NCBI GenBank assembly: GCA_003252295.1
Contig: QKEV01000020.1
Coordinates: 1-32,609 of the forward strand
Reading direction: 5' to 3'
DNA: 32,609 nucleotides
DNA from: a bacterium
GTDB lineage: Bacteria > Patescibacteriota > Minisyncoccia > Phycocordibacterales > UBA12088
Below, in pieces: positions 6,283 through 20,629 of the stretch. The notes under the pieces were generated by a model. The model was not told the DNA's origin. It saw nothing but the letters and a program-made list of their open reading frames with translations, and did not search any database. How positions within the stretch are numbered: position 1 is the stretch's first letter; each line of letters starts with the position of its first letter. The translations under genes were made by a program, and so were the position numbers.

Positions 6283-6690
6283 GGGGATGATCGGCTTCGA
6301 CATTGGAGTCGTTCTTTGAGATGTGCAAGTAGACCTCCATGCAAGTCTTAAAAAGGTTTGGAAACCAATACGTGCAAACAAAACTGCACGGGCTATTCTT
6401 TCACCTTTCCAGATGAAAGACCTAGCTCCTGCTTTTGCATAACCGCTTAGGTTACCAAAAGTCGTCGGTTTCAGTTGACGTCGATATACTGACTCCGGCG
6501 TAATACTATTCGACTATGGTTAGTATGGTCGCACCACCATACTCGTCGAGACACTCGGTGCTAGGAAGGGTAGATTTTGTTTATTTAGCCCTGCCCTTCT
6601 GAAAATGCTTCGGCAGTAAAATAAACTACACTTGTAGATCATCTCGAAGAATCTTCGATGAACGCGGGTTCGATTCCCGCCATCTCCACC
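6283..6690 (+). ncRNA. ssrA: Transfer-messenger RNA (tmRNA)
   Basis: One-piece tmRNA of about 408 bases. The 5' end GGGGATG (6283-6289) pairs with CATCTCC (6681-6687) as a 7-bp acceptor stem, with G-U at the third pair. The T arm GCGGGTTCGATTCCCGC precedes it directly. The tag frame starts at GCA 6374 and runs 22 codons, beginning ANKTARAI and ending LAPAFA, with TAA at 6440-6442. It rescues stalled ribosomes together with SmpB. Odd points: the gene reads ACC-T after the acceptor stem, so the final A of CCA is not encoded, and a recombinase reading frame enters the 3' half antisense. Upstream, CCCCTAAA (6250-6257) can pair with TTTAGGGG (6278-6285), covering the mature 5' end in the precursor. 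Confidence 0.96.
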
Positions 6691-8478
6691 TTCATGAGGT
6701 TTTTGCCTCGAACTAACACTGCCTGTATCGTCCGATGCGGGCAGTGTTTCGGTTATAATAACGGGCTGCTTTGCTAGTTCACGTAGCATGTCTTGCGGCA
6801 ATCGCAGCTTTATATGTATACGATAAGGCAACAACTGCCCTTCCTTCTTTCTTCCTGCCACCTTATCCTCCTCGGTCACAGGACGAGAATACACCACCAC
6901 TTCCTCTATCAGTAAGTGGAACAGGTCATACAGCATTTGAGTATCCTTTTCTATGTTTTCTAGCACATTCTGATATTTCTTCACGAAGAGATCGAGTGTA
7001 CGTATATACCCCTCGGAAAGACTTACTTGTGAACGGGTTCGCTCAATCTCATTCAAAGCTGCATGGTATTTGCGTTCACTATTCGTCAACTCATCCATTT
7101 GCTCTTTGAGCCTGCGACCATCAATTACACCAAGCTCATGCTGTTCACGTAGCCGATCTCTTCGCGCAGGCAATCCGTTCGCAAGTTTGAGTATTTCAGA
7201 TTCACGTTTCTCCAATTGCTTCATCTCAACCCTGGATGACTGTAGCTTACGTTGATGCTTCATAACTGCCTCTGGGTTCCTTAGAATCTCTTTACACTTA
7301 TTCAAGATATATTGTTCAATCTCATCAGCTGGTAGAGGTAATACCAAGCACGTACTGTCATACTTTCCGGTATTTTTATGTCCACAATGATAGTAACGAA
7401 CTCTCTTTTTCTTTCCTTTCTTGAGAGTTTTCCCGGTTCCAACCCAGTGGTTGCGCGTATCACCCACAGAACAGGCATCACACACCAGCAATCCACTTAG
7501 TGGGTACAATGATTCTTTTGAACGACCTTGCCCTTCGTGCTTGAAACGCTTCAAGTTACGCTGTGTCATCTCAAATACTAAATCACTAACAATCTGTGGC
7601 GCACGCTGATCTGCCTCTTTCCATTCCTTTTTGGGAAGTGGTTTGCTGTTTTTTGATTTGTGATAGTAAATCTTTCCTATATACACCTCATCAGTAAGCA
7701 CCTTTCTAACAACCTCGGGTCGCCAATGATGTACTGTGTTGTTTTTCCGTATATTCTTTTTTACTCCCTTCTGAATCACTGCGCTTGCTTCAGGAGAGAA
7801 TACTTCGTTCTCCCGTAAGTAAGTGGTTACGTCACCAACAGTCATTCTCCGACTAGCAACCATATCAAACATATCCCTGATCACAGCAGCTTCTTCTTCA
7901 AAAATGACCAAATGCCCTTCGTTGTCTTTTCTGTAACCGTATGGAGGTATTCTACCCATTACACGACCCTGCTTGAGTGCCTGTTCCTTCCCTGCTTGTG
8001 TACGTTGGACAATAGTCTCACGCTCAAGCTCAGCAATAACGCCAATGAAGCTAAGCATTGCACGACCGAATGGAGTAGAAGTGTCGATACTCTCATTTAC
8101 AGATAAAAACTCAAGTTCATTATCCTGGAAAAAATCAATGATACTGAGTAATACGACTAGTTTACGAGCAAGACGATCAATGCGATACACAGCAACAGCA
8201 TCGAAGGGTCGGTTGTCGGGTGGAGCCAGTTCAACAGCTTCCTTGAGGCGTGCGAAGGCTGGGCGTTCCTCCGCCTTGACTGTGCCACTTATCCCATCGT
8301 CGCAATACACATGATCCTCTCCAGCAAAAACAAAAGGTTGAGGTGTATTTGCGCGTGAGGCAATAAGTGCATCAATAGCGCTCCGTTGCAGGTCTTTCCC
8401 GTATTTTTCAACTTGTTCATCTGTTGAAACACGTATGTATATAGCGACTCTTTTTGGTGTTTGCTGCTGCTCTGACAT
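6520..8478 (-). CDS. Large serine recombinase 1
   Basis: 652 residues from ATG 8478. N-terminal resolvase-type catalytic domain (RVAIYIRVSTDEQ, nucleophile Ser about 18; RIDRLARK and the GRAMLSFIGVIAELERE helix further on), then a recombinase domain, a zinc-ribbon-like segment (CDAC ... YYHCGHK ... C), and a coiled-coil region (VMKHQRKLQSSRVEMKQLEKRE onward). Such enzymes integrate or excise phages, ICEs and other islands by site-specific strand exchange. The last 50-odd codons (GGDGGNRTRVH to the stop at 6520) are antisense to ssrA, so the C-terminal tail was probably created by integration at ssrA; the native end should be near 6690-6720. An upstream in-frame start at 8523 lacks support. 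The gene is divergent from the RNA at 8752. Confidence 0.93.
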   Translation of the reverse strand: MSEQQQTPKRVAIYIRVSTDEQVEKYGKDLQRSAIDALIASRANTPQPFVFAGEDHVYCDDGISGTVKAEERPAFARLKEAVELAPPDNRPFDAVAVYRIDRLARKLVVLLSIIDFFQDNELEFLSVNESIDTSTPFGRAMLSFIGVIAELERETIVQRTQAGKEQALKQGRVMGRIPPYGYRKDNEGHLVIFEEEAAVIRDMFDMVASRRMTVGDVTTYLRENEVFSPEASAVIQKGVKKNIRKNNTVHHWRPEVVRKVLTDEVYIGKIYYHKSKNSKPLPKKEWKEADQRAPQIVSDLVFEMTQRNLKRFKHEGQGRSKESLYPLSGLLVCDACSVGDTRNHWVGTGKTLKKGKKKRVRYYHCGHKNTGKYDSTCLVLPLPADEIEQYILNKCKEILRNPEAVMKHQRKLQSSRVEMKQLEKRESEILKLANGLPARRDRLREQHELGVIDGRRLKEQMDELTNSERKYHAALNEIERTRSQVSLSEGYIRTLDLFVKKYQNVLENIEKDTQMLYDLFHLLIEEVVVYSRPVTEEDKVAGRKKEGQLLPYRIHIKLRLPQDMLRELAKQPVIITETLPASDDTGSVSSRQKPHEGGDGGNRTRVHRRFFEMIYKCSLFYCRSIFRRAGLNKQNLPFLAPSVSTSMVVRPY

Positions 8479-8556
8479 GACAATATGAAATAGAGATGAT
8501 GGTATAGAACTATAGTAAGACACTCGTCATTTACCGTCCATATCTATGCAATATCA

Positions 8557-8698
8557 ATGCTAACATATGCTAACTTTTTGCATATAAAAACATTGGATTT
8601 TCTACCTAAGAAAACCTAAGATTCAGAAAACTCATCTGGCTCAGAAATGCTCAGATTCAAGTGCTATGTGGTTTTTGATAATGTTCACATTTGTTCAC
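8557..8698. repeat. Four direct-repeat pairs N7-AWW-N7 with 10-bp period
   Basis: Successive pairs: TGCTAAC-ATA-TGCTAAC (8558-8574), ACCTAAG-AAA-ACCTAAG (8604-8620), GCTCAGA-AAT-GCTCAGA (8639-8655), TGTTCAC-ATT-TGTTCAC (8682-8698). Each pair repeats a different heptamer exactly one helical turn apart with an A/T spacer beginning in A. They fill the gap between recombinase 1 and the RNA at 8752. A protein contacting the same face of DNA twice would fit, but no known site family is recognised. Confidence 0.8.
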
Positions 8699-8739
8699 TT
8701 TTCACTCTCTGGCAACTAGCATAGATGATGGTGTAACGT

Positions 8740-8745
8740 TATAAT
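8740..8745 (+). promoter_or_regulatory. -10 box for the structured RNA
   Basis: Perfect TATAAT, with expected start near 8752. No good -35 is visible at 16-18 bases; the N7-AWW-N7 repeats end 41 bases upstream, so an activator-dependent promoter is possible. Confidence 0.45.
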
Positions 8746-8751
8746 CAACAA

Positions 8752-8946
8752 CACAATTGAATACATACACCTAAACTCCAAGCATGGGGCATGGTGGCAA
8801 AAACCGACCAAGTTGAAGAACTCCTCGTTTAGGAGCACCTTGGTCGGTTGTCGAAGGAAACTTCGGCAGGTGGGGCGAAAGTCCCATCGCCTAGCGAGGA
8901 GCTTTTTGCGTTCCCACTAGGTTATTACCAACCTAGTTTTTTGTTT
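8752..8946 (+). ncRNA. Structured RNA R1, unassigned
   Basis: Predicted by eye. Stem A: AACCGACCAAG (8802-8812) with CTTGGTCGGTT (8839-8849), 11 perfect pairs, enclosing CTCCT/AGGAG (8821-8825/8831-8835). Stem B: CGAAG-GAAA-CTTCG (8852-8865). Stem C: GGTGGGGC/GTCCCATC (8869-8876/8881-8888), capped by GAAA. CTCCTCG (8821-8827) is also complementary to CGAGGAG (8895-8901), giving a pseudoknot or an alternative pairing. A terminator follows. The two GNRA loops and the G-U pairs favour the plus strand as the RNA. It matches no RNA class I can recall. It could be a stand-alone RNA or a leader of the gene at 8948. Confidence 0.65.
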
Positions 8947-8947
8947 T
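8916..8947 (+). terminator. Intrinsic terminator of R1
   Basis: ACTAGGTT/AACCTAGT (8916-8923/8930-8937) with a 6-base loop, then TTTTTTGTTTT. The ATG of the next gene follows directly, so this may be the expression platform of a leader RNA. Confidence 0.85.
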
Positions 8948-9178
8948 ATGTTGATGCAATTTGCAGTCGGTGGTGCAGTGGGTATGTTTGCCATTACTCT
9001 CGTTTACGGTATGCAAAAGGTGTTCTCTACCATCTCACTCAAGCGTGGCACGTCAATAAGTTGGCGCGAGGCGATCCACCAGAAACTTACGAGGTGGTAT
9101 GACTGGCCTGCCGTGATATTTTTCTTACTTTTTGTAGCAATGGTAGTATTGGGTCTAAGCGCACCCAACTTTTCCTAG
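8948..9178 (+). CDS. Small two-helix membrane protein
   Basis: 76 residues with transmembrane helices at about 4-22 and 54-72 and a basic segment between them (SLKRGTSISWREAIHQKLTRW). Family unknown. The start lies immediately after the R1 terminator U-run and has no ribosome site. The next small membrane gene begins 5 bases downstream, so they are probably one operon. A holin-like or toxin-like role would fit the size but has no motif support. Confidence 0.6.
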   Translation: MLMQFAVGGAVGMFAITLVYGMQKVFSTISLKRGTSISWREAIHQKLTRWYDWPAVIFFLLFVAMVVLGLSAPNFS

Positions 9179-9183
9179 AAACC

Positions 9184-9360
9184 ATGAATCGAGAAGACCG
9201 CAATGGTGGGCTTTGGGCTATGTCATACCTCACGTTCCTATTGATCTACATGACGGCATCTGTGTTTCCCATCACCAAAGACAACATCGTCATTGTTGGT
9301 GGCGGACTTTTTTTACTCGCCAATTTGTTTGGTTGGTCATGGACGAAGGGGTGGTTCTAA
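9184..9360 (+). CDS. Small two-helix membrane protein
   Basis: 58 residues beginning MNREDRNGGLWAMSYLTFLL. Two hydrophobic helices (about 12-29 and 36-51) are joined by a short polar turn, ending WSWTKGWF. It starts 5 bases after the stop of the previous small membrane gene. No family recognised; the paired topology suggests the two products act together in the cytoplasmic membrane. Confidence 0.6.
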   Translation: MNREDRNGGLWAMSYLTFLLIYMTASVFPITKDNIVIVGGGLFLLANLFGWSWTKGWF

Positions 9361-9366
9361 ATACAC

Positions 9367-9813
9367 ATGTACATGGAAAGAATACATAAGGAAATGGATT
9401 GTGAAGTCTCTCAGGAAACGATACTGTTGTATAAACTCAATGCATACCACCTCCTCCGCATCATCCACTCATGCGACCAATCAGAATCCAGTTTTGAACT
9501 TGAAACAACCATCCCGCTTCAAATAGCCTGTAGATGCTCTCAAATAGCTGCTACAGGTGTCCTGATGCTTGCTCGTGGTAACGGTACTTACGAACCTTGG
9601 TCATTTCATGCATTCCTACAAGCTGCCTTACTCGGGTACCTAGACGCTAAGTACTTTACCGATGATTCTCAGTGGTATACCTTACGACCTCACCTACTTG
9701 AACACCTTTCCTACACAGCAATATACGACCGTCGAGACGCGTTTCAGTTCATATTCAACTCATCCGCAGCAGACGGAGCCGAGCTTTTCCCCAACTCACA
9801 ACAATCTCATTAG
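9367..9813 (+). CDS. Hypothetical protein with a duplicated 3' end
   Basis: 148 residues, mostly helical, no recognised domain or signal. The last 55 codons up to the sequence GAELF (9624-9788) are repeated at 10992-11156 with one difference. After that point this copy ends quickly in PNSQQSH, whereas the second copy continues FWTTVDELSNDSS. So the present C-terminus is probably a secondary junction, and the original gene was longer. Its stop overlaps the protease stop on the opposite strand by 3 bases. The start could be ATG 9367 or 9373. Confidence 0.65.
   Translation: MYMERIHKEMDCEVSQETILLYKLNAYHLLRIIHSCDQSESSFELETTIPLQIACRCSQIAATGVLMLARGNGTYEPWSFHAFLQAALLGYLDAKYFTDDSQWYTLRPHLLEHLSYTAIYDRRDAFQFIFNSSAADGAELFPNSQQSH
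9624..9788 (+). repeat. 165-bp direct repeat, copy 1
   Basis: Matches 10992-11156 with a single mismatch (C at 9659, T at 11027). Identity stops sharply at both ends. The unit from copy to copy is 1368 bp and carries the SDH-type protease and its small partner. Confidence 0.97.
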
Positions 9814-10733
9814 TTGTTTGACTGTTGGACTATAGGTACTTTTTGCACCACTCTTGAACCTTTGTGGTTTTCAGTTATTTTTATTGCTTCGGTTGCACCT
9901 AAAGTGTGCATCATCGCATGATGAATCGATAATACGATTTCTTGTAATTTTTGATCATCCTCAAGTTTCTCAATTTTTAGACCAATTTCTTCACATTTTG
10001 ATACAGAAAGATGGCGTCCGTGTGAAAGGCTAACAGCATGATTACCAAGCTCCTCAAGTATTCTATCTATTCGTTCATCTCTCTCATTCTCTTCTAGATC
10101 AGCAAACATGCGCTCCTTTAGTCGTGCAGAAGCAATTTGTTCTGCCCAATCAATAGCTTTTTTGCACTCGCCTAACAGTGTTGGAGTGTATTTTGACAGC
10201 ACATGAGACCAAACAAACTGTCTTGCAGGGTCACGTTTTATATCCTCAACTGCTTGATCCACCTCCTCCAATATTCCATGCGCAGGCACCTGTCCAAAAG
10301 GAGTGCGAAGTTGCGGATCAATCGGACCAAGACTACTGTGCTTACCCATTACAATTTTATCTGCAGCACATGCAATCATTGTCCCTCCTGACATTGCTAG
10401 CTGTGGAACAATAACACGTATGTCGCTAAACATTGTACAAAGATAATCAATAATTGATTCAGTCGCTGCAACATCACCTCCCGGCGTATGAAGTAAGAGA
10501 TCAAGACCTGCATTCTTATCAAGTCCTTTCATTGTTGCCATGAAAGCATTTTTATCAAAATCATTTATGGCTACTATAGGTGACTGAACAGGTTTTTGTA
10601 ACCATCCACTGTAATATGCTATAGCCATCCGGCCTGTGTGTTTTTGCAGTTGACGCAAATATTTGCCACGTACACCATCAAAGTCGCCTCGTGTTTGTTG
10701 AAGTTCTCTTAGAATACCTGACCAGTCTGCCAT
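9810..10733 (-). CDS. SDH-type Clp-fold serine protease
   Basis: 307 residues. Crotonase/ClpP-fold protease of the SDH_sah type (Pfam PF01972-like): HTPGGDVAATESI (82-94, oxyanion region), LAMSGGTMIACAADKIVMG with nucleophile Ser about 115, and LGPIDPQL (135-142), the family hallmark. Relatives are often membrane-linked, but here no transmembrane segment is evident, so the enzyme is probably soluble. A charged helical C-terminus (about 200-290) follows the protease core. The small gene at 10709-10921 overlaps its start by 25 bases, implying one operon. The cassette is bracketed by the 165-bp repeat. Substrate unknown. Confidence 0.88.
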   Translation of the reverse strand: MADWSGILRELQQTRGDFDGVRGKYLRQLQKHTGRMAIAYYSGWLQKPVQSPIVAINDFDKNAFMATMKGLDKNAGLDLLLHTPGGDVAATESIIDYLCTMFSDIRVIVPQLAMSGGTMIACAADKIVMGKHSSLGPIDPQLRTPFGQVPAHGILEEVDQAVEDIKRDPARQFVWSHVLSKYTPTLLGECKKAIDWAEQIASARLKERMFADLEENERDERIDRILEELGNHAVSLSHGRHLSVSKCEEIGLKIEKLEDDQKLQEIVLSIHHAMMHTLGATEAIKITENHKGSRVVQKVPIVQQSNN

Positions 10734-10921
10734 TGTTTTACATTTGTTAGATGATTATCAAAATCTGACTTACTTCCTGTAATTACCCAATCGTGCATAT
10801 TGTTCTGATTCTCCCAACACCCACTTTTAGGTATCTCAAATTGATGGGCCCCAGTTTTTTGGACTTCTTTGAGAAGTTTTTCAACATCTTTTTCTTTTTT
10901 GGAGGTGGTCTGTTTCTTCAT
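10709..10921 (-). CDS. Small partner protein of the SDH-type protease
   Basis: 70 residues from ATG 10921: a Lys-rich helical N-terminus (KKQTTSKKEKDVEKLLKEVQ) followed by a compact segment with Trp residues (SGCWENQNNMHDWVITGS). Not recognised. The start at 10921 is preferred to ATG 10945 because an extended -10 (TGT-TACCAT) lies 7 bases before it. It overlaps the protease start, so the two are co-transcribed; it could be an adaptor, inhibitor or substrate. Confidence 0.6.
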   Translation of the reverse strand: MKKQTTSKKEKDVEKLLKEVQKTGAHQFEIPKSGCWENQNNMHDWVITGSKSDFDNHLTNVKQWQTGQVF

Positions 10922-10991
10922 ATCTACAATGGTAACACGAACCATATCGTAAACCTAGATTTAGTATTTGAGGACTCTCAAGTCATTACAA

Positions 10992-11156
10992 TGCCTTACT
11001 CGGGTACCTAGACGCTAAGTACTTTATCGATGATTCTCAGTGGTATACCTTACGACCTCACCTACTTGAACACCTTTCCTACACAGCAATATACGACCGT
11101 CGAGACGCGTTTCAGTTCATATTCAACTCATCCGCAGCAGACGGAGCCGAGCTTTT
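10992..11156 (+). repeat. 165-bp direct repeat, copy 2
   Basis: Second copy of 9624-9788, with one substitution at 11027. It marks the right boundary of the protease cassette. Confidence 0.97.
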
Positions 11157-11200
11157 TTGGACAACAGTTGATGAACTTTCAAATGACTCATCAAAAAACG
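10992..11200 (+). pseudogene. 3' fragment of the 148-aa gene
   Basis: The first 165 bases (10992-11156) equal 9624-9788. In the same frame the sequence continues FWTTVDELSNDSSKNAS up to the stop region of the PIN gene on the other strand. No start codon or ribosome site fits, so this is a truncated remnant. It probably preserves more of the original C-terminus than the upstream copy. Confidence 0.75.
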
Positions 11201-12373
11201 CTAGTCAAAAACCACCGACTCCTTCTCAATATCCACAACAACATCAAATCTTCTCAAAACTGGCTCAGTATTTGTATCTGTTACAGATTGCCAATCTCCA
11301 TCCCACCAATAAACAGTTGAATCATAAACATTTCTCACAAAATCTTTTTGTCTATATATTGGCGTAAGTTTTAGAATTACAACCGCTTTGACTAAATTCA
11401 CATCAAGAGGATCCTCATGAATGAATGATATATCTACTGCATTTGTGCGCTGAGAAAGAACGTAAGCAACCACTTTAGTATCATCTGACGCTTGAGAATA
11501 AAAAGGGTTTTTGTAAGGCTTGTATACTGGACCAGGATTATCAAATGTTAGGTATTTTTTAGATGAAACATAACTTACCTGATCTGGCGTGTTATATTTT
11601 TCAAGCTCCTGATTTGCCTGCATAATCGCGAAGCCAATATTTCTATTTATTATATTTCTTACCAGATCATGCTTTTTTTGTAGCTCTAAATTTAGCGCAT
11701 ATCGTTCATCTAACAAACTTGTTACATCATCAATGGTTCTAAGTATTGATAATGCCTGTTTTTTCCCAATCTCGTCAGAAAACTCAGCCTTTAGAATGTC
11801 TGGTGAAAAATCACCACCATTGTTTTTTGTGTTTTCTTTCCAATTATCTGTACAAAGAACATAATCACAGTCTACATGTTTTTTTGCATCTTCTAGCAAC
11901 GAAAGCCAAACGAGTGTATCCCTCATACCTTTGTCTTTACCAGAAAAAGGCTTCACCCCTGCACACGACCGATGTAACAAATTTGTTGGAGTTATGCTTG
12001 AAGGTATCTCAATGTATTCAACTTTGCATTTTTTTAGTTGTTCGAAAGCTGATTTTTCAAGTTGAGTATTGAAACTCTCGTTTGGGGCTTTTTTTAGCTC
12101 ATAAACAATATCAAGCTTCTCAAGCTGAGTGATACCGTTTGTAACCACATCAAACATTTTTTGCGCCTCCTTAGCCTTTTGATAGACACGTTCCTGCAAG
12201 ACAGTCTCAGAAACACACAATGTCACCTTTTCTGAAAGCTCATGTTGATCAACAAAACCATGAATGTTCTTCAGTTTTGAGTTGAACACAAACTGAAAAT
12301 CATCGGGATTATCATCCCAAAAAACGTTTGTATCAAAAAATATTCTCAATTTTTTTACTGCACTCTTGGACAT
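11201..12373 (-). CDS. PIN-domain protein (DUF4935-like)
   Basis: 390 residues from ATG 12373. PIN nuclease core at the N-terminus: LRIFFDTNVF (first acidic residue), SETVLQERVYQKAKE (Glu), KDKGMRDTLVWLSLLEDAKK (acidic pair) and DYVLCTDNW (last Asp). This order matches PIN proteins of the DUF4935/PIN_12 type; the acidic residues bind Mg/Mn for RNA cleavage. The C-terminal 200 residues are an unassigned mixed domain. The frame also opens at GTG 12418, which would overlap the upstream small gene; I prefer the ATG that places the PIN fold at the N-terminus. Operon with the 80-aa gene. Likely a toxin or defence effector. Confidence 0.8.
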   Translation of the reverse strand: MSKSAVKKLRIFFDTNVFWDDNPDDFQFVFNSKLKNIHGFVDQHELSEKVTLCVSETVLQERVYQKAKEAQKMFDVVTNGITQLEKLDIVYELKKAPNESFNTQLEKSAFEQLKKCKVEYIEIPSSITPTNLLHRSCAGVKPFSGKDKGMRDTLVWLSLLEDAKKHVDCDYVLCTDNWKENTKNNGGDFSPDILKAEFSDEIGKKQALSILRTIDDVTSLLDERYALNLELQKKHDLVRNIINRNIGFAIMQANQELEKYNTPDQVSYVSSKKYLTFDNPGPVYKPYKNPFYSQASDDTKVVAYVLSQRTNAVDISFIHEDPLDVNLVKAVVILKLTPIYRQKDFVRNVYDSTVYWWDGDWQSVTDTNTEPVLRRFDVVVDIEKESVVFD

Positions 12374-12407
12374 ACACGAAGAATTATTATCACCAACATA
12401 AAAACGT

Positions 12408-12650
12408 TCAAGAATCACTCCGGGTCTTTTCTAATAGGAGATGTAGGACTGCTTCATTTTCTGCCTCTGTGGACGAAATTTCGACCTCTAGTGACGGTAA
12501 ACCGTAGCCTCGTGCCAAAGCAGAATTTTTATTACTAAAGTAGTAATCAACATCATCACCAACTCCCATAGACATCTCAATACCGTCACCAAGGTCAAAC
12601 TCTCGTGCGTGCTCATCAATACATCTAACATCATGGTTACTCTTTGCCAT
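12408..12650 (-). CDS. Small acidic protein upstream of the PIN gene
   Basis: 80 residues from ATG 12650, strongly acidic, beginning MAKSNHDVRCIDEHAREFDL and ending LLLEKTRSDS. No family recognised. The start is supported by an extended -10 (TGT-TACAAT) ending 7 bases before the ATG. The stop lies about 34 bases before the PIN ATG. Size, charge and position fit an antitoxin or immunity partner, but that is inference only. Confidence 0.6.
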   Translation of the reverse strand: MAKSNHDVRCIDEHAREFDLGDGIEMSMGVGDDVDYYFSNKNSALARGYGLPSLEVEISSTEAENEAVLHLLLEKTRSDS

Positions 12651-12657
12651 AAAGTAT

Positions 12658-12666
12658 ATTGTAACA
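12658..12666 (-). promoter_or_regulatory. Extended -10 promoter of the PIN operon
   Basis: On the minus strand TGT-TACAAT, then 7 bases, then ATG. Implies a leaderless first gene. Confidence 0.45.
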
Positions 12667-12761
12667 TGCATAAACAACACTTTGTTCTCAAAAATTTTAC
12701 CGTCCCCAAATTGGCACTTGCTATTTCTACAACATGTTCTCTACTATGATATACTGCTTAC

Positions 12762-13262
12762 ATGGACAACAATACTATTTTAGAAAAATATACAAAACTA
12801 GTACCAGTACCAATCGTTGCATTAGCTCAAGAGCTCGGTTTGAAGATATATGAGACAAATGAACTCAAAAAAAATGAGTCAGGTGCTATCAAAAAAGAGG
12901 GTGACGATTATGTTATATACCTAAATGCATCAGACCCCACCACTCGTAAAAGGTTTACAATTGCGCATGAAATTGCACATTTTTTGTTACATAAAGAATT
13001 GTTGGATAACAACAGAGAGTTTGTAGACACAGCGCAACAACCTACCACACTTTACAGATCAGCTGGTGACACACCTTCCGAAGACCGCCGATACGAAATT
13101 GAGGCCAACATGAAGGCTGGTGAGTTGTTGATGCCAGAACAAACCTTCATTGAGGCATATACTCAGGCAGATAGTATTATTGACCTTGCTCGACAATACA
13201 AAGTGTCTCCTAGTGCAGCAACCGTTCGCTCACAAATACTCTCCAATTCTTTCATAAGCTAG
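12762..13262 (+). CDS. ImmA/IrrE family metallopeptidase
   Basis: 166 residues, the single-domain form. HEIAH (69-73) supplies two zinc ligands and the catalytic Glu; EIEAN (112-116) supplies the third ligand. In phages and ICEs such peptidases cleave an XRE-type repressor and so derepress the element. No repressor gene is adjacent here; the next gene is a membrane protein 7 bases away. The start is set by TGA-TATACT ending 6 bases before the ATG (extended -10, leaderless). It is divergent from the PIN operon and may control the island. Confidence 0.9.
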   Translation: MDNNTILEKYTKLVPVPIVALAQELGLKIYETNELKKNESGAIKKEGDDYVIYLNASDPTTRKRFTIAHEIAHFLLHKELLDNNREFVDTAQQPTTLYRSAGDTPSEDRRYEIEANMKAGELLMPEQTFIEAYTQADSIIDLARQYKVSPSAATVRSQILSNSFIS

Positions 13263-13269
13263 ATACCGC

Positions 13270-13569
13270 ATGCCACTAAACAAAACGTTAGAAATCAAGG
13301 ATGATGCAACGCTTGAGGGAGAAAAGAAGAACAACAACCACAAGCGAACAGAAAGAATGCAAGAAGTGCTCAGCTGGCTTGTCATCATGGTACTTGTTGT
13401 TATTGCACTGGCGTTAGTGACAGTAACCGCCATGTACGTATATCACCTTCTCAAGATTGAAGATTGGAACACAATAAAAACACTTATATTTTCGATAGGT
13501 TCAGGTATCACTGGATATATGCTTGCATACCTCAAGCAAGTACATGGAATCGACCTTGGAAAAAACTAA
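13270..13569 (+). CDS. Small membrane protein paired with ImmA/IrrE
   Basis: 99 residues: a charged, Lys-rich cytoplasmic N-terminus (1-30), helix 1 (about 35-57, LSWLVIMVLVVIALALVTVTAM) and helix 2 (about 68-86), ending in VHGIDLGKN. Unknown family. It begins 7 bases after the peptidase stop, so it is likely co-transcribed; it might be a peptidase target or a membrane anchor. Confidence 0.65.
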   Translation: MPLNKTLEIKDDATLEGEKKNNNHKRTERMQEVLSWLVIMVLVVIALALVTVTAMYVYHLLKIEDWNTIKTLIFSIGSGITGYMLAYLKQVHGIDLGKN

Positions 13570-13665
13570 GCACTAATAAATAAAAAGGTGATTGTCCAGT
13601 TTTTCTATAGAGGCATTATCTCCCTATTCGTACTATTTCCCTGTCTATATCAGGACAGAGCAATA

Positions 13666-15237
13666 CTAGAGGGTATGGTGACCACATCTTGAGGTTCCCG
13701 GTAAAAATTTCATCTTTACATCGTATGAGTTCGTTGACCCAAATTGCTCAAAAAGCTCGTAAGCTATTGACGGTTTAGCGGTTCCAAAGCCGTTTTCTGG
13801 GTCAACAGATAAATGTTCGGCAAAAGCTAGTCTCAGTACTAGCTTTTTGTCATCTAACGCACCAGAAGTCCATATATTGTATGGGCTTTCAACATATCCA
13901 AATACTTCTTCAAGTGCGGTTCCAAAGTCAAAGTTTTCTGGCACAAAAAGAGCTACGCTGTTTTGTAGCTCTTCAATCTCTTTTGATAACTTTTCAATTT
14001 TTTTCTCATATACTTTTTGTATGGTTGGACTTCGAGCAGTTGGTATTAGATCAGCATACGAATCAATCTCGTCTTCAATCTCTTTGATTTTTTTGTTTTT
14101 TACCTCCCTTTCAGAACGCATGGCATTCATGCTTGTTTGCCAAATATTGGTAGCAATTTCTTTTGTTAGTTGAACCACACTCTTTTTGGGTTTGAAACTT
14201 TTCAAGAGTTTATCAAAATCTCGTTCCACTAACGACATACTGATACTCTTACCATAGATTCTACACTCCTTATTCTTACAACGGTAATACCCATACCGTT
14301 TTGTTCTACCTTTAGAATAACTTGCTGTCAGCAAAGTATGACACTCACTACACTTCAAAAATCCTCTGAGTGGAAAAGCTGGATTGTCATCGAGTCTGGG
14401 TTTTGCTATGAACCCCTTACGTAACCTTTCTTGGATTCTTTCAAAAGTTTCAAGGTCAATTATTGCTTCATGATGACCCCTCCTCCTCGCAACTTCCCAT
14501 TTGGGATACTCAATGAATCCCGCGTACAAAACTCTAGTTAGCAACCTGTGTACTTGCTCTAGGTATACGTTTTCGGACTGTTTTTTATGAAAGAACCCTT
14601 TAGATTCAAGAAATTCTTTCACATCTGTCTGTGTATAAAACCTGCCCGAGGCAAAACCCCTCAATGCTTCTTCAATGATACTTGCTTTTGGTTCATCCCT
14701 AACCAACAACCACCTATGTACCGGATCATTATTTCTTTTGTATCCAGGTACTTGTGAATTGAAAGTCCAATATCCAGCTTCAAGTCTAGCTTTTTGTTTC
14801 TGAACTACTTGTCGTTTATTCTGTTCCCTTTCAAGCTGACCTTGTGCAGCCAAAATTGTTTCAATGAATTCTCCCTCAGGAGTATCTTCAAATGAAAAGT
14901 TTGGACATTCCACTTTTACCCCTCTTTTGTCTAGTGACCGACGTAACTTGATGTGATTGACGGTATCTCTAGCAAAACGTTTCAAGTCATCAAAGATGAC
15001 CACGTAGTTCTTATGAGGATGTGTATCTACATGTTCAATTAGTTCACGCATGGCAGGACGCTGCATAAAATCACCGCCACCCGTAAAGCTATCTTTGAAG
15101 ACCTTCTCTACACCATAGTTTTTTGCAACTGCATAAACACGACAACGCTGTTCTTGACTATCAAGACCATTTCCCTCTTTCTTTTGTCTCTCAGAGGAAA
15201 CCCGTGCATATATGAGTGCGACTGTTTCTTTCGACAT
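13666..15237 (-). CDS. Large serine recombinase 2
   Basis: 523 residues. Catalytic domain with ALIYARVSSERQ (nucleophile Ser about 14), DDLKRFARD and a LEREQNKRQV helix. A recombinase domain follows (VPGYKRNNDP to about 280), then a zinc ribbon CSEC...YYRCKNKEC (about 297-325) and a coiled coil with KNKKIKEIEDEIDSYADL. Only distantly similar to recombinase 1. Start ATG 15237; a 54-aa gene lies 15 bases upstream and is probably translated from the same mRNA. It probably moves a second, nested or adjacent element. Confidence 0.94.
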   Translation of the reverse strand: MSKETVALIYARVSSERQKKEGNGLDSQEQRCRVYAVAKNYGVEKVFKDSFTGGGDFMQRPAMRELIEHVDTHPHKNYVVIFDDLKRFARDTVNHIKLRRSLDKRGVKVECPNFSFEDTPEGEFIETILAAQGQLEREQNKRQVVQKQKARLEAGYWTFNSQVPGYKRNNDPVHRWLLVRDEPKASIIEEALRGFASGRFYTQTDVKEFLESKGFFHKKQSENVYLEQVHRLLTRVLYAGFIEYPKWEVARRRGHHEAIIDLETFERIQERLRKGFIAKPRLDDNPAFPLRGFLKCSECHTLLTASYSKGRTKRYGYYRCKNKECRIYGKSISMSLVERDFDKLLKSFKPKKSVVQLTKEIATNIWQTSMNAMRSEREVKNKKIKEIEDEIDSYADLIPTARSPTIQKVYEKKIEKLSKEIEELQNSVALFVPENFDFGTALEEVFGYVESPYNIWTSGALDDKKLVLRLAFAEHLSVDPENGFGTAKPSIAYELFEQFGSTNSYDVKMKFLPGTSRCGHHTL

Positions 15238-15252
15238 AAATATTATATTAGG

Positions 15253-15417
15253 CTATTTCTGCTCCTTTGTGAGCAGTTCTTTTTTGTTACTTATAAAGTT
15301 AGTAATGATTGGCTCTATGAGTTGATACACTTGGTCACGCAAAACAAGCACCTCCTCATCGGTGAGTTTTTCGTTTTGTAGAATTTCTCTACATTTTTCA
15401 AGTGAGATACGACTCAT
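15253..15417 (-). CDS. Small helical protein upstream of recombinase 2
   Basis: 54 residues beginning MSRISLEKCREILQNEKLTD, then EEVLVLRDQVYQLIEPIITN. Two predicted helices. Short proteins with a '.LEKC..IL......D.E....R..LY.L' pattern are, from memory, common near recombinases in Parcubacteria; function unknown. The 15-base gap to the recombinase implies co-expression, perhaps as a directionality or DNA-binding factor (speculative). Confidence 0.65.
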   Translation of the reverse strand: MSRISLEKCREILQNEKLTDEEVLVLRDQVYQLIEPIITNFISNKKELLTKEQK

Positions 15418-15427
15418 AAATCCACTA

Positions 15428-15466
15428 TTTGCTGAGTAGGTACAGTCGCATTACCCGCCCAGCAAA
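15428..15466 (-). promoter_or_regulatory. Leader hairpin before the recombinase 2 operon
   Basis: TTTGCTG/CAGCAAA outer stem (15428-15434/15460-15466) with an inner GGTA/TACC stem, ending 10 bases before the ATG of the 54-aa gene. It could regulate translation, or be a site in DNA. Confidence 0.4.
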
Positions 15467-15492
15467 CAACGGACCGCGACTTGTCCAGACAC

Positions 15493-15550
15493 AAAAAAGA
15501 CCCCCAAACAGGTGTTGACGTATTTACATCAACATTTGTTTGGAGGTCTT
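15493..15550 (-). terminator. Long-stem intrinsic terminator of R2
   Basis: 26-base arms (15497-15522 and 15525-15550) pair except for a two-base AA/CC mismatch, with two G-U pairs on the minus-strand RNA, followed by TTTTTT. It separates R2 from the 54-aa/recombinase 2 operon. Confidence 0.8.
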
Positions 15551-15735
15551 ACTCTCAATCTCAATTGTTTATTTGAGATACCTCGAATCGAAGAACCATA
15601 GGATCGCTTTTAGGTTCTTTCTGGACTGTGGTTCATCACTGAACCAGACAACTTCTGATAAAGAAGTTCTTGGAGCTTTTGACTTACATCATCATTCTCC
15701 ACGATCTTTGACGTCCGAGGACTTTATATGTACCT
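15493..15735 (-). ncRNA. Structured RNA R2, unassigned
   Basis: A minus-strand unit with its own promoter, TTGACT (15770-15765), 17 bases, TATCAT (15747-15742), and its own terminator at 15497-15550. Hairpins between, in RNA order: AACTTC/GAAGTT (15668-15650), TGGTTCA-GTGA-TGAACCA with a GNRA loop (15646-15629), AAGAACC/GGTTCTT (15619-15591) and TCTCAA/TTGAGA (15578-15559). The repeated GGTTC/GAACC segments can also pair with each other's partners. About 240 bases, no convincing reading frame. RNA class unknown. It precedes the recombinase 2 operon. Confidence 0.65.
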
Positions 15736-15741
15736 GACACA

Positions 15742-15770
15742 ATGATACACACATCGACATCGCAAGTCAA
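15742..15770 (-). promoter_or_regulatory. Promoter of R2
   Basis: TTGACT, 17-base spacer, TATCAT on the minus strand; start expected near 15735. Confidence 0.6.
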
Positions 15771-15772
15771 AA

Positions 15773-16243
15773 TTATTCTTGTGAATTATCTTTACGCAAA
15801 CCAAGTTTTACCAATTCATCAAAGAACGAATCATCAACGACGTACTCTTCTTTATTTATATTCAAATACCTGACATTCCAATGATTCTTATTCGCCCAAT
15901 CATTTCCTACTAGATTCATCGCAACTACCCACTTACTTTGAAGCATTGCTCCGAATGCATTTTGACTATCTACATAAGAGGTAACGATCCATGTACCATC
16001 TTCAACCTGCCACGCTTTGTAATCACTAGATGGATATTCCGCTGTACTTGGCGACAGTAATCTTTCTGTAACAAAATCTTGTGCAGCAATGTATACCTTC
16101 GATGAAGTTACAACATCCTCTTGCGTGCTTTCGCCTGAAAATATATTCCAAAAGAATATAAAAATTCCAAAGAAAAGTATTCCGGTAGCTATGTTTATAA
16201 AAACCTTTTCTTTAGTTGAATAGTCTTCGTATTTTTTATGCAT
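15773..16243 (-). CDS. Membrane-anchored exported protein
   Basis: 156 residues from ATG 16243. A short basic cytoplasmic start (MHKKYEDYSTKEK), one transmembrane helix (about 15-36, INIATGILFFGIFIFFWNIF), then an extracytoplasmic domain with AAQDFVTERLLSPSTAEYPSS and IVTSYVDSQNAFGAML. That pair of motifs recurs, from memory, in small exported proteins of many bacteria and phages whose function is unknown. An upstream in-frame start would fall inside the structured leader. Expression is probably controlled by leader R3, whose terminator-like hairpin touches the start codon. Confidence 0.75.
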   Translation of the reverse strand: MHKKYEDYSTKEKVFINIATGILFFGIFIFFWNIFSGESTQEDVVTSSKVYIAAQDFVTERLLSPSTAEYPSSDYKAWQVEDGTWIVTSYVDSQNAFGAMLQSKWVVAMNLVGNDWANKNHWNVRYLNINKEEYVVDDSFFDELVKLGLRKDNSQE

Positions 16244-16426
16244 AAAAAACCACCTAACTAGTAACGTGGTGGCTGGGTACAAAAAGCCCGCCACCAGGAG
16301 GACCGAAGTCCCTATATGGGTTTCCCCATATAACGTAGAAGACGCCCTGAATGACGGGTTGTTTGTCTTCTACGATTTGCGACCATGCCACCCAAAGATG
16401 GTTTAGGTCTTTTTATTCAATTGTGT
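16244..16426 (-). promoter_or_regulatory. Structured leader R3 with attenuator-like mutually exclusive stems
   Basis: On the minus-strand RNA, in order: CGTAGAAGAC/GTCTTCTACG 10-bp stem (16374-16334), TATATGGG-GAAA-CCCATATA (16332-16313), GGAC-UUCG-GUCC (16311-16300), then GGTGGC(GGG)/(CCC)GCCACC (16295-16268). The last CCACC (16272-16268) can instead pair with GGTGG (16254-16250), which is followed by TTTTTT and the ATG. The upstream stem would act as antiterminator, the downstream one as terminator. GAAA and UUCG loops appear only on this strand. No known riboswitch consensus recognised. Confidence 0.65.
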
Positions 16427-16432
16427 ACCAAG

Positions 16433-16461
16433 ATTGTAGCGCGTATACGCACAAAAACCAA
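16433..16461 (-). promoter_or_regulatory. Promoter of leader R3
   Basis: TTGGTT, 17-base spacer, TACAAT on the minus strand; start near 16426. A GCGTATACGC palindrome (16441-16450) lies within the spacer and may be an operator. Confidence 0.55.
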
Positions 16462-16519
16462 CCTGAGGTCTCACAGAACCATCCAGATTGCATTATTTTG
16501 TTCCAAAAGTACCCAAATG

Positions 16520-16537
16520 TGTCAGATTTGTCAGATT
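16520..16537. repeat. Two tandem copies of a 9-mer
   Basis: TGTCAGATT twice in a row, just after the HTH gene stop codon. Purpose not evident. Confidence 0.6.
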
Positions 16538-16541
16538 TGAA

Positions 16542-16847
16542 CTAACGGTTCATGTAGTCTGGGTGTCTTCTGCTGAGGAAAAACCTTATTGAAGGTCCGT
16601 CTAATTGGTGAATTTTTATCTTTAGCGCATCTTCGGTAATGTCTAACATTTTCTGATCTTCGTATTCAATGCCTTCACGAAACTTTTTGTCAGTACGCAA
16701 CCACCTGTAGTAAGTATCTCTACTTACCCTCGCGATTTTACATATCGCACTGACATTCCTTCCTGCATTACGTTTATAAGCAGCTAAAAATATTTCTTTT
16801 TTTGATTCAATTACACCACAATTATCTTTTCCATCAGAATCATGCAT
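16542..16847 (-). CDS. Helix-turn-helix protein, phBC6A51/terminase-small-subunit-like
   Basis: 101 residues. KKEIFLAAYKRNAGRNVSAICKIARVSRDTYYRWLRTDKKF (about 16-57) is the HTH of the phBC6A51-type family, which resembles phage terminase small subunits and transposase-associated HTH proteins. The C-terminal helices (ITEDALKIKIHQLDGPSIRFFLSRRHPDY) are also typical. DNA-binding, probably phage- or element-derived. Its ATG overlaps the HigA-ImmA stop by 8 bases, so translation is coupled: third gene of the higBA operon. Confidence 0.8.
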   Translation of the reverse strand: MHDSDGKDNCGVIESKKEIFLAAYKRNAGRNVSAICKIARVSRDTYYRWLRTDKKFREGIEYEDQKMLDITEDALKIKIHQLDGPSIRFFLSRRHPDYMNR

Positions 16848-17952
16848 ACATTATTTCTTTTGGTAGATCAGACTTCACTTTTACTAAAGCCCGACGAAAT
16901 TGATTATATCCAAGAATACCCTTATGTTGTAAAAAACCAACCAAAATACCTGGATGAACACCTATTTCTCCACTGATATGCAACAAGGAAGAGGGTCTCA
17001 AAACAACGTTTGTCATACTCAAAACCTCACCTACACCAAGGACTCTGACAGCAAATTCATTTGCCTCTTGTTCTTCCTTTTGAGCACCAAGGTTATTTAT
17101 TTCGTCATGAAAATCTTTATTTGGATGAAGTAATATGTGTCCAATCTCGTGTAATAAGGTAAAGTAAAAATTATCAATCCTATCGTAACGTAGTGACATA
17201 ATAATCACTGGTTCTCTTTCACTAATCCATGTCGCTGCGCCATCAACTCGAGTTTTAGAAAAATGTGGAAGTATAACAACTCGAACACCAAGACTATTCA
17301 GTTTAGCAAGAACTTTCTGAACACCGTCAGTATCTATTGAATATCTTTTTATTTCTTGAGCAAACCGTTGCAAATCTTCGGAACTATATGATGGTGTTTT
17401 TTTTATTTTTTCCGCTAATCTTTTTCCCAACTGAACCCATGTTGCCAAATAACTTTCAACAACAGTCCCACACGAAGATGCACGCAAACACACTTGCATA
17501 CCACTGAGGTTATCCTCCACCCCTTCTCCAAGCAAATCTTCAATTGCTTTTTTTATATCTAAAACAGTTTTTTTGTTAGGTAGATATTTTCGTTTTATCA
17601 ATTCAGCAATAGGATAACGTGCATACAACTCTGAGCGTTCCTTTACTTCATCAACTTTTTTTTGCTCCTTTTTAGAAAGTAAATATGCATCATAATCAGC
17701 TTGCAACCTCAGCCAAAAATCCGGAGTATTACCAATTGCTGCTCCAATAGACTGAGCCAACTCAGGTGTAATGGAACGCTTTTCTTTACAAAGCTCATTC
17801 ACAGTCCTCAAAGGCTCGTCAATTATCTGAGCAAATTCTGTCTGTGTTATTCCACGCTCCTCAAGTTCATCACGGAGATGTTCTCCAGGATGAAATGCAA
17901 GATGTGGCATACTCACTTCTTGTCGGCTTTTCATGTTTTTCATATTACTCAT
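16840..17952 (-). CDS. HigA-type antitoxin fused to an ImmA/IrrE peptidase domain
   Basis: 370 residues. An XRE/HigA helix-turn-helix at about 19-90 (FHPGEHLRDELEERGITQTEFAQ, TPDFWLRLQADYDAY) is followed by a helical linker. The zinc-peptidase domain has HEIGH (267-271) and EANEF (295-299). HigA normally neutralises HigB and represses the operon; the fused peptidase may allow self-cleavage or signal-dependent derepression, as in XRE-COG2856 proteins. The start overlaps the HigB stop by 8 bases; the alternative Met15 directly precedes the HTH. Toxin-first order is usual for higBA. Confidence 0.9.
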   Translation of the reverse strand: MSNMKNMKSRQEVSMPHLAFHPGEHLRDELEERGITQTEFAQIIDEPLRTVNELCKEKRSITPELAQSIGAAIGNTPDFWLRLQADYDAYLLSKKEQKKVDEVKERSELYARYPIAELIKRKYLPNKKTVLDIKKAIEDLLGEGVEDNLSGMQVCLRASSCGTVVESYLATWVQLGKRLAEKIKKTPSYSSEDLQRFAQEIKRYSIDTDGVQKVLAKLNSLGVRVVILPHFSKTRVDGAATWISEREPVIIMSLRYDRIDNFYFTLLHEIGHILLHPNKDFHDEINNLGAQKEEQEANEFAVRVLGVGEVLSMTNVVLRPSSLLHISGEIGVHPGILVGFLQHKGILGYNQFRRALVKVKSDLPKEIMYA

Positions 17953-18232
17953 AATGGTTAGTAATTTCTTGAATCTCTAACTCATCTTCATCTGTTTTTG
18001 AAAACACTAATCTATATCCTTGGTTTAGTCGTATTGAATACTTGTTTACTTCGCCTTTGAGTTTTTCAAAATGGTTACCTTTCACAGCACGTAAATCATT
18101 TTCATTTGTGGCTGCTTTTATCTTTTGCATTTTTTTGAAAAAAGCTCTTGCAACCCCATCAGGATACCTATTTGCTCCAATTCCTTTGGTGTACATTTTT
18201 GCTAGACCCGAGTCCCTGAAATAAAAATTCAT
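17945..18232 (-). CDS. HigB-type mRNA interferase toxin
   Basis: 95 residues from ATG 18232 (GTG 18256 is a possible earlier start). RelE/HigB fold: MNFYFRDSGLAKMYTKG, a helical middle with FFKKMQKIKAATNENDLRAVKG, and the hallmark C-terminal strands KYSIRLNQGYRLVFSKTDEDELEIQEITNHY. It cleaves mRNA on the ribosome in the family. Strong promoter upstream; the antitoxin follows with overlap. Confidence 0.9.
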   Translation of the reverse strand: MNFYFRDSGLAKMYTKGIGANRYPDGVARAFFKKMQKIKAATNENDLRAVKGNHFEKLKGEVNKYSIRLNQGYRLVFSKTDEDELEIQEITNHYE

Positions 18233-18271
18233 ACTGTACTTTGTAACAGCTAACACCTTTCATGTAAACCT

Positions 18272-18300
18272 ATTTTATGCTTTTTTTGTATACTTGTCAA
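18272..18300 (-). promoter_or_regulatory. Promoter of the higBA operon
   Basis: TTGACA (18300-18295), 17-base spacer, TAAAAT (18277-18272) on the minus strand. A GTATAC palindrome next to the -35 element may be part of a HigA operator. Confidence 0.7.
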
Positions 18301-18353
18301 CAGGTTATACACATATTTTGTAATATATCACATTTACATTTTTACGTTTTTTA

Positions 18354-18381
18354 CAATTTTTATTTGTCAAAATAAAAATTG
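18354..18381. repeat. AT-rich inverted repeat between higB and HNH gene
   Basis: CAATTTTTATTT / AAATAAAAATTG (12-bp perfect arms, loop GTCA). A terminator or operator in the divergent intergenic region; no GC core, so a strong terminator is unlikely. The rest of the gap to 18442 shows only a possible promoter for the HNH gene (TTGACC-17-TATTTT). Confidence 0.5.
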
Positions 18382-18442
18382 AAGAGTATAATCATGTTGG
18401 TCATCTTTGTTGACCACATTACTAGATAAACATATTTTCGAT

Positions 18443-18724
18443 ATGTTTTCAGATGAACAACTTGTGCAGGCTGTTTGGAACAAGGCGACAATTGTCCCAA
18501 GCATGAACTCTGCCCTGATGCGCATGGATAACTGTGGCGCATTCATCAAACGTTCTGAGTATGGTAACCGCAACAGTGCATATGGATGGGAGATGCACCA
18601 CATCATCCCTGAATCACGAAACGGTTCAACAACACTCGGGAACCTTATTCCACTGCAGTGGCAAAACAATCTTCGAACTGCAGATAACACACACCTGCTC
18701 TGTGTTATTGGAAACAACAGGTAG
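18443..18724 (+). CDS. HNH endonuclease-fold protein
   Basis: 93 residues. NCGAFIKRSEYGNRNSAYGWEMHHIIPESRNGSTTLGNLIPLQWQNNLRTAD contains the HNH core: HHI (catalytic His region), Asn of GNLIPL, and NNLR. The zinc-binding Cys pairs of many HNH enzymes are absent, as in this 'YGNRNS.YGWE.HHI.P' subfamily. Probably a DNA nuclease of unknown target. The start is the second in-frame choice (18443); a -10-like TATTTT lies only 4 bases upstream. It is convergent with the AAA-TOPRIM gene. Confidence 0.8.
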   Translation: MFSDEQLVQAVWNKATIVPSMNSALMRMDNCGAFIKRSEYGNRNSAYGWEMHHIIPESRNGSTTLGNLIPLQWQNNLRTADNTHLLCVIGNNR

Positions 18725-18725
18725 C

Positions 18726-18755
18726 AAAAAGAACTGACGTTTGCCAGCTCTTTTT
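18726..18755 (+). terminator. Intrinsic terminator after the HNH gene
   Basis: AAAAAGAACTG/CAGCTCTTTTT (one mismatch) with an 8-base loop and a T-rich 3' arm; it starts right after the stop codon. Confidence 0.75.
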
Positions 18756-18769
18756 GATCTTTTCTTTGT

Positions 18770-18793
18770 GAGACACTCCATATGGAGTGTCTC
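18770..18793. repeat. 24-bp perfect palindrome
   Basis: GAGACACTCCAT / ATGGAGTGTCTC, no spacer, between the convergent HNH and AAA-TOPRIM genes. It could be a bidirectional terminator component or a protein site. Confidence 0.85.
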
Positions 18794-18870
18794 TTGTATT
18801 CTAGAAGACCTAGATACATGAAAGCAAGAATAATATATCATTACCTGTTGATTCTTCACCTCTATTGTCA

Positions 18871-20445: not shown

Positions 20446-20629
20446 CCCCAGATACTACCTTCTTATCTGTTCTATTACCAGTATGTGGTAGATACAGAAA
20501 TACTTTTTATATAGTTTGCAACGTATTTCCTATCTCTTTTCGCTTCTGCAACAAGTTGTAAGCCTCAAAAACCCAGCTTTGTAACTGGTTCCATCTTTTT
20601 TGAATCACGTCCACCAATTACAAAAACGA
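20446..20629. other. Non-coding gap upstream of the AAA-TOPRIM gene
   Basis: A/T-rich, no convincing reading frame. The open minus-strand frame that crosses 20565-20897 runs through the terminator and ssrA-like sequence and is not treated as a gene. Confidence 0.5.

Follow-up and report, generated by a model that had tools for sequence, protein, structure and literature searches.

What kind of sequence is an array in which four different short words are each repeated at one and the same distance within a single intergenic gap, and what could it do there? The question arises from a stretch of 32,609 nucleotides (contig QKEV01000020.1, here the window) in which a sequence-only reading had reported four heptamers, each occurring twice at a 10-bp offset. 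All four pairs were confirmed. The term heptamer holds for pairs C and D, where the exact run is 7 bases, but in pairs A and B it is 8 bases:

8557 to 8574, plus strand: pair A, ATGCTAAC-AT-ATGCTAAC, 10-bp units ATGCTAACAT and ATGCTAACTT
8604 to 8621, plus strand: pair B, ACCTAAGA-AA-ACCTAAGA, 10-bp units TACCTAAGAA and AACCTAAGAT
8639 to 8655, plus strand: pair C, GCTCAGA-AAT-GCTCAGA, 10-bp units TGGCTCAGAA and ATGCTCAGAT
8682 to 8698, plus strand: pair D, TGTTCAC-ATT-TGTTCAC, 10-bp units ATGTTCACAT and TTGTTCACTT

The repeat offset is 10 in all four pairs, which is one helical turn, on the same strand and with A/T linkers. The 7-mer starts of successive pairs are 46, 35 and 43 bases apart, as reported; in register the spacing is 46, 34 and 44 bases, not a whole number of turns. 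The array is non-coding and lies within a 289-base gap between the start of an integrase gene (8478) and a LOOT RNA (8768), and these are the recombinase and the RNA between which it had been placed (RF03000, 75.9 bits). No further pair was found on either strand of the gap when one mismatch and a pitch of 9-12 bases were allowed. Therefore, the identity within pairs is not an artefact of searching for exact repeats only.

That the array is not due to chance, as first claimed, was borne out. Markov versions of the gap held 0.030 pairs on average and never more than 2 in 20,000 simulations, and when the best of lags 7 to 30 was allowed the largest count was again 2 (3,000 runs). Other CPR-type genomes, sampled over 50.6 kb of non-coding DNA, had such repeats at a rate of 0.034 per 289 bases; the Poisson probability of at least four is then about 5e-8, not corrected for the choice of lag and place. 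The four pairs are the only offset-10 matches of at least 7 bases in the window. Only two other repeats in the gap reach 7 bases at lags 7-30 (lags 16 and 18), and two lag-10 repeats within 160 bp were not seen in 61.8 kb of sampled non-coding DNA. Chance is thus excluded for the four-pair array; statements made here for whole genomes rest on pattern searches and sampled stretches.

The earlier description of a constant geometry with a changing word was right on both counts, but the words are probably not unrelated. Aligned by eye, the four heptamers give NSYTMAS with A/T linkers, and pairs A and D, like pairs B and C, resemble each other at 76-78% over 23-25 bases. A rotation-free similarity test on the four 10-base units gave a weak, borderline result (P = 0.066). 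The degenerate double site SYTMASAWNNSYTMASWT has 4 matches in the window against 0.01 expected, and 5 in the 1.1-Mb genome, 4 of them in this gap (control 0); since the pattern was built from the four sites themselves, these counts show confinement to the gap and not relatedness. It is likely, though not proven, that a single degenerate double site underlies the four words. More striking is how much closer half-sites are within pairs than between pairs. They agree at 27 of 28 positions within pairs and at 57% between pairs; if half-sites were drawn independently from one motif, such an excess would have P = 9e-5 (1 of 105 re-pairings). Where the two units of a pair differ, they do so within the same four linker columns, and this holds for each of the four pairs (P = 0.04); it is what one would expect if a 6-base core is the part that is read.

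The gap is part of a mobile element, and the features that bear on its role are:

6283 to 6690, plus strand: tmRNA gene, the integration target
6520 to 8478, minus strand: large serine integrase with Resolvase, Recombinase and zinc-ribbon domains, divergent from LOOT, its 3' end overlapping that of the tmRNA gene
6685 to 20615, no strand assigned: mobile element of about 13.9 kb with TCCACC at its ends (6685-6690 and 20610-20615)
8740 to 8745, plus strand: TATAAT, inferred -10 box of LOOT, with no good -35
8768 to 8888, plus strand: LOOT RNA (RF03000) copy 1, 75.9 bits against a gathering threshold of 46.4
16299 to 16409, minus strand: LOOT RNA (RF03000) copy 2
16542 to 16847, minus strand: terminase-small-subunit-like HTH protein directly before LOOT copy 2 (phrog_2538, E 1.3e-6)

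In a genome of the same genus (G005, L095) the tmRNA gene is followed by sequence that resumes in the window after about 20.6 kb. This order, together with TCCACC at both ends, indicates that the 13.9-kb element was inserted at the 3' end of the tmRNA gene. Its cargo comprises two serine recombinases, two LOOT RNAs, an SDH-type protease, a PIN protein, ImmA-like and HigBA-like proteins, an OLD/AAA-type ATPase and the terminase-small-subunit-like HTH protein, which scored below the cut-off for Pfam PF20901. A gene for a terminase large subunit is absent from the element. The element has the size and parts of a putative phage satellite in a candidate-phylum bacterium.

The integrase reading frame extends 170 bases into the tmRNA gene (region 6283-8523). 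Nearly all of its close relatives (38-49% identical) are located at tRNA 3' ends, which points to a clade of serine integrases that target tRNA and tmRNA genes. In candidate-phylum genomes the integrase genes of this clade end at or inside tRNA or tmRNA 3' ends (Lys, Val, tmRNA; L078-L081, L401, L404, L405, L409).

On the other side of the gap, the TATAAT box is followed by the motif ACAAYTGAATA, which precedes most LOOT genes in the upstream sequences of 28 LOOT loci. The LOOT promoter and transcription start are accordingly predicted to lie at the gap, and the centre of pair D would then be about 61 bases upstream of the start. LOOT is divergent to serine recombinases in 5 of the 28 LOOT loci as well as in L401, L404 and L409. 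The divergent order of integrase and LOOT seen in the window recurs in L003, L008, L013, L021, L401 and L404, and L409 has this order with a terminase gene in between. The location of LOOT points to an RNA that may belong to mobile elements or phage satellites. To our knowledge, no function has been established for LOOT RNA. It stands beside terminase-small-subunit genes at copy 2 in the window and in L409.

The explanation that we tentatively put first, at somewhat less than an even chance, is that the array is a cis-regulatory operator region that controls the integrase and LOOT promoters in the tmRNA-integrated element. It is favoured by a geometry typical of proteins that bind head to tail, with direct repeats one turn apart, a loose core and A/T linkers. 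Each pair would be one double site with two identical half-sites that point the same way and share one face of the helix, to which two protomers of a small DNA-binding protein would bind head to tail. Four such double sites could allow cooperative binding and DNA bending, and binding would set the transcription of the integrase, of LOOT RNA, or of both. Each pair probably goes back to a single half-site that was duplicated locally as a 10-bp unit, and this would explain why pairs match more closely within than between. The location between divergent genes and the position of pair D at about -61 from the predicted LOOT start support the operator. So do the excess of lag-10 repeats, the near confinement of the degenerate double site to this gap, the closer agreement within pairs, the mismatches limited to the linker, and the recurrence of the divergent integrase-LOOT order at other loci.

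Several known systems have sites of this kind. Apl, Cox and Xis bind head to tail on direct repeats about one turn apart and of loose sequence (PMC7498355), and RdfS binds such direct repeats in the same manner (PMC11963761). BldC binds as a head-to-tail dimer to a double direct repeat, which in whiI is 22 bp with 9-bp repeats, and response regulators are named as direct-repeat binders as well (PMC5859096). Recombination directionality factors (RDFs) and BldC have their sites next to integrase genes and in the space between early promoters (PMC7498355; PMC11963761; PMC5859096). RDF operators, namely those of phage 186 Apl, P2 Cox, lambda Xis and ICE RdfS, share with the window 10-11 bp direct repeats on one strand, a loose 6-base core, several sites in a row, an integrase neighbour and a position between early promoters (PMC7498355; PMC11963761). 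They differ in being continuous arrays that belong to tyrosine integrases, whereas the window has four isolated pairs, each with its own word, next to a serine integrase; its att site is far from the array and no RDF was found. The one-turn, same-strand direct repeats of the RDF/Xis type are thus present in the window, but the array is not at the att site. BldC sites are likewise double direct repeats, A/T-rich and of loose consensus, but have a period of 9 instead of 10 (PMC5859096). The earlier statement that the array is unlike ordinary operators was therefore too strong, since sites of the RDF/Xis/Cox/Apl and BldC kind typically consist of loose direct repeats at one-turn spacing (PMC7498355; PMC5859096). 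The array is real, non-random and locally unusual, and if functional it would be a new form of a known kind of operator. Iterons or an operator with a single word were rejected, as the window has four words with only a degenerate consensus.

Against the operator, the searches of element and genome gave no candidate regulator. In OmpR/PhoB boxes, half-sites some 7 bases long are repeated directly at a pitch of 10-11 bp, separated by an A/T linker. These boxes match the window in half-site, linker and pitch, but the OmpR-type DNA-binding domain (PF00486) had no match in the genome (G000), whereas 10 of 14 controls were detected. No Xis-like or RDF protein (Xis, Cox, Apl, HTH_17) was recognisable in the element, and the only HTH_17 match in the genome is a host gene outside it. 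A BldC-like protein was not found in the element either. Besides the recombinases, the only evident DNA-binding candidates there are the terminase-like HTH protein and a HigA-like protein. Furthermore, RDFs of serine integrases mostly need no DNA sites, which counts against the operator, and so does the spacing between pairs (46, 34, 44), which is not in whole turns.

Conservation also counts against it. The sequence-only reading had named homologous recombinase-RNA loci as the place to see whether the spacing is kept, and had taken its loss there as a refutation; the spacing is in fact not kept at 11 integrase relatives or at 31 other LOOT loci. None of the 11 relatives has the array upstream of its integrase gene (L078-L081, L109-L111, L189-L191, L409; 38-49% identity), which were drawn from whole genomes, genome contigs and viral contigs; single-protein scans of genome contigs and viral contigs gave no integrase relatives. 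Upstream of 27 other LOOT genes from a family search there are no lag-10 repeats, and the LOOT loci L401, L404, L405 and L409 lack the array, too. It is missing even upstream of relatives that share the integrase-LOOT order, which speaks against the operator. DNA searches for a homologous gap (60 relatives, phages) gave only short chance matches.

The geometry recurs once, with a different word and at a different place. A separate lag-10 array is present in an element of genome G300 (L407:7733-7860), whose integrase is 43% identical. It contains TCCATTA, TTCCACC and TCCACCA, twice each, and one imperfect pair GCCACCA/GCCATCA, and it is located 2.6 kb from the integrase. The genes on either side of it are convergent, and an operator would not be expected in such a gap. 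Apart from phage loci picked by word search, 1.8 Mb of other sequence held no further lag-10 clusters. A broader proposal is that there is a class of regulatory arrays in the mobile elements of candidate-phylum bacteria whose double sites each have two identical copies of a word of their own. This identity would be kept by repeated local 10-bp duplication, the word would be free to differ between sites and elements (SYTMAS here, TCCAYYA in G300), and the head-to-tail reader would belong to an undescribed family. We consider this quite unlikely.

If the array is an operator, it would give a handle on the control of integrases in mobile elements of candidate-phylum bacteria, which lack most known regulators, and also on LOOT RNA, which here has serine recombinases in divergent orientation and terminase-like genes as neighbours. 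The identity within pairs would then show how direct-repeat operators arise. If slippage alone made the pairs, they would be a caution against judging repeats by exact identity.

Slippage is the main rival, and we regard it as unlikely but serious. It holds that four independent 10-bp slippage duplications occurred in an A/T-rich gap without any function, so that the halves of a pair are alike as recent copies and the words are unrelated. The high identity within pairs and the borderline similarity between words (P 0.066) agree with this, as does the lack of conservation in any homologous locus. Phage arrays bear on it as well. When viral contigs were scanned for the exact words, most matches were single pairs, but three phage families turned out to have decamer arrays. 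Phages related to L062 have such arrays before the large terminase gene. In this family (L321-L389), TGYTAGN decamer arrays lie about 100-220 bases before this gene and are present in some siblings and absent in others; six, five and four units (TGTTAGCNNA / TGCTGGAATA / TGCTAGGATT) occur in L322 and L324, L332 and L323. Whole units are gained or lost between siblings and neighbouring units are alike. By analogy, this supports local duplication as the source of the within-pair identity, and makes plausible the earlier suggestion that the heptamers are copied in place. This family resembles the window in having its words, TGYTAGN, at exactly 10 bp and several words side by side, but its array is continuous and in another genome context; it serves as an analogue, and kinship is not implied. 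Slippage fits less well with the same period and strand in four of four pairs, with the lack of any other lag-10 repeat in the window, with the scarcity of other repeats in the gap (lags 16 and 18 only) and with differences confined to the same linker in each pair. Reading the pairs instead as insertion footprints would require 7-bp target duplications with 3 bp left, and we know of no bacterial element that leaves these.

The preferred operator reading must further be weighed against a packaging-type site, in which a ring of the terminase-small-subunit-like protein (16542-16847) would contact DNA once per turn and the element would be a satellite packaged by a helper phage. This is improbable. 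The element does have an integrase, a terminase-small-subunit-like gene, no large subunit and a satellite-like size, and in L409 a terminase small subunit (PF03592, 6.8e-15) lies beside integrase and LOOT. However, L409 has its terminase gene intact and no array, and no terminase gene was recognised in the stretch of the G300 element that was read. Some phage decamer arrays adjoin terminase genes (L062, L199, L057), but the phage loci were found by word search, so this link is biased. As a general mark of terminase loci lag-10 arrays were rejected, since in 1.55 Mb around large-terminase genes the clusters were confined to the query family. Phage T7 has heptamer arrays near its left end, which lend this reading some support. 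These short repeats left (SRL) also form a heptamer array in a mobile genome, and their word CCTAAAG is close to word B (ACCTAAG), but they have a period of 13 and one word throughout; because of this period, T7-type repeats were rejected as an identity for the window array.

Accessory sites for the serine integrase, or for its directionality factor in excision, had been suggested before, and we now hold them to be very doubtful. The array adjoins the integrase gene, and the G300 element with its related integrase has a lag-10 array as well. Yet the att core (6685-6690 and 20610-20615) is not at the array but 1.9 kb from it, at the opposite (3') end of the integrase gene. This and the lack of an array in the 11 relatives (38-49% identity) weaken the reading. 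Serine integrases normally need no accessory DNA, which also counts against it. That several paralogous regulators each read one heptamer, an earlier suggestion to which the four different words lend themselves, is highly improbable, since a single degenerate motif accommodates all the words in the same register and orientation, and paralogous DNA-binding proteins do not form a family in the element.

Two further repeats were noted within the element. One is a block of about 160 bases at 9636-9794, where the reading frame 9367-9813 ends; it returns almost unchanged at 10993-11155 and is an apparent recent duplication within the element. The other is a repeat with a 9-bp period (TGTCAGATTTGTCAGATTTG) at 16520-16539, where the terminase-like gene ends immediately upstream of LOOT copy 2, so that a similar micro-repeat stands beside the second LOOT, too.
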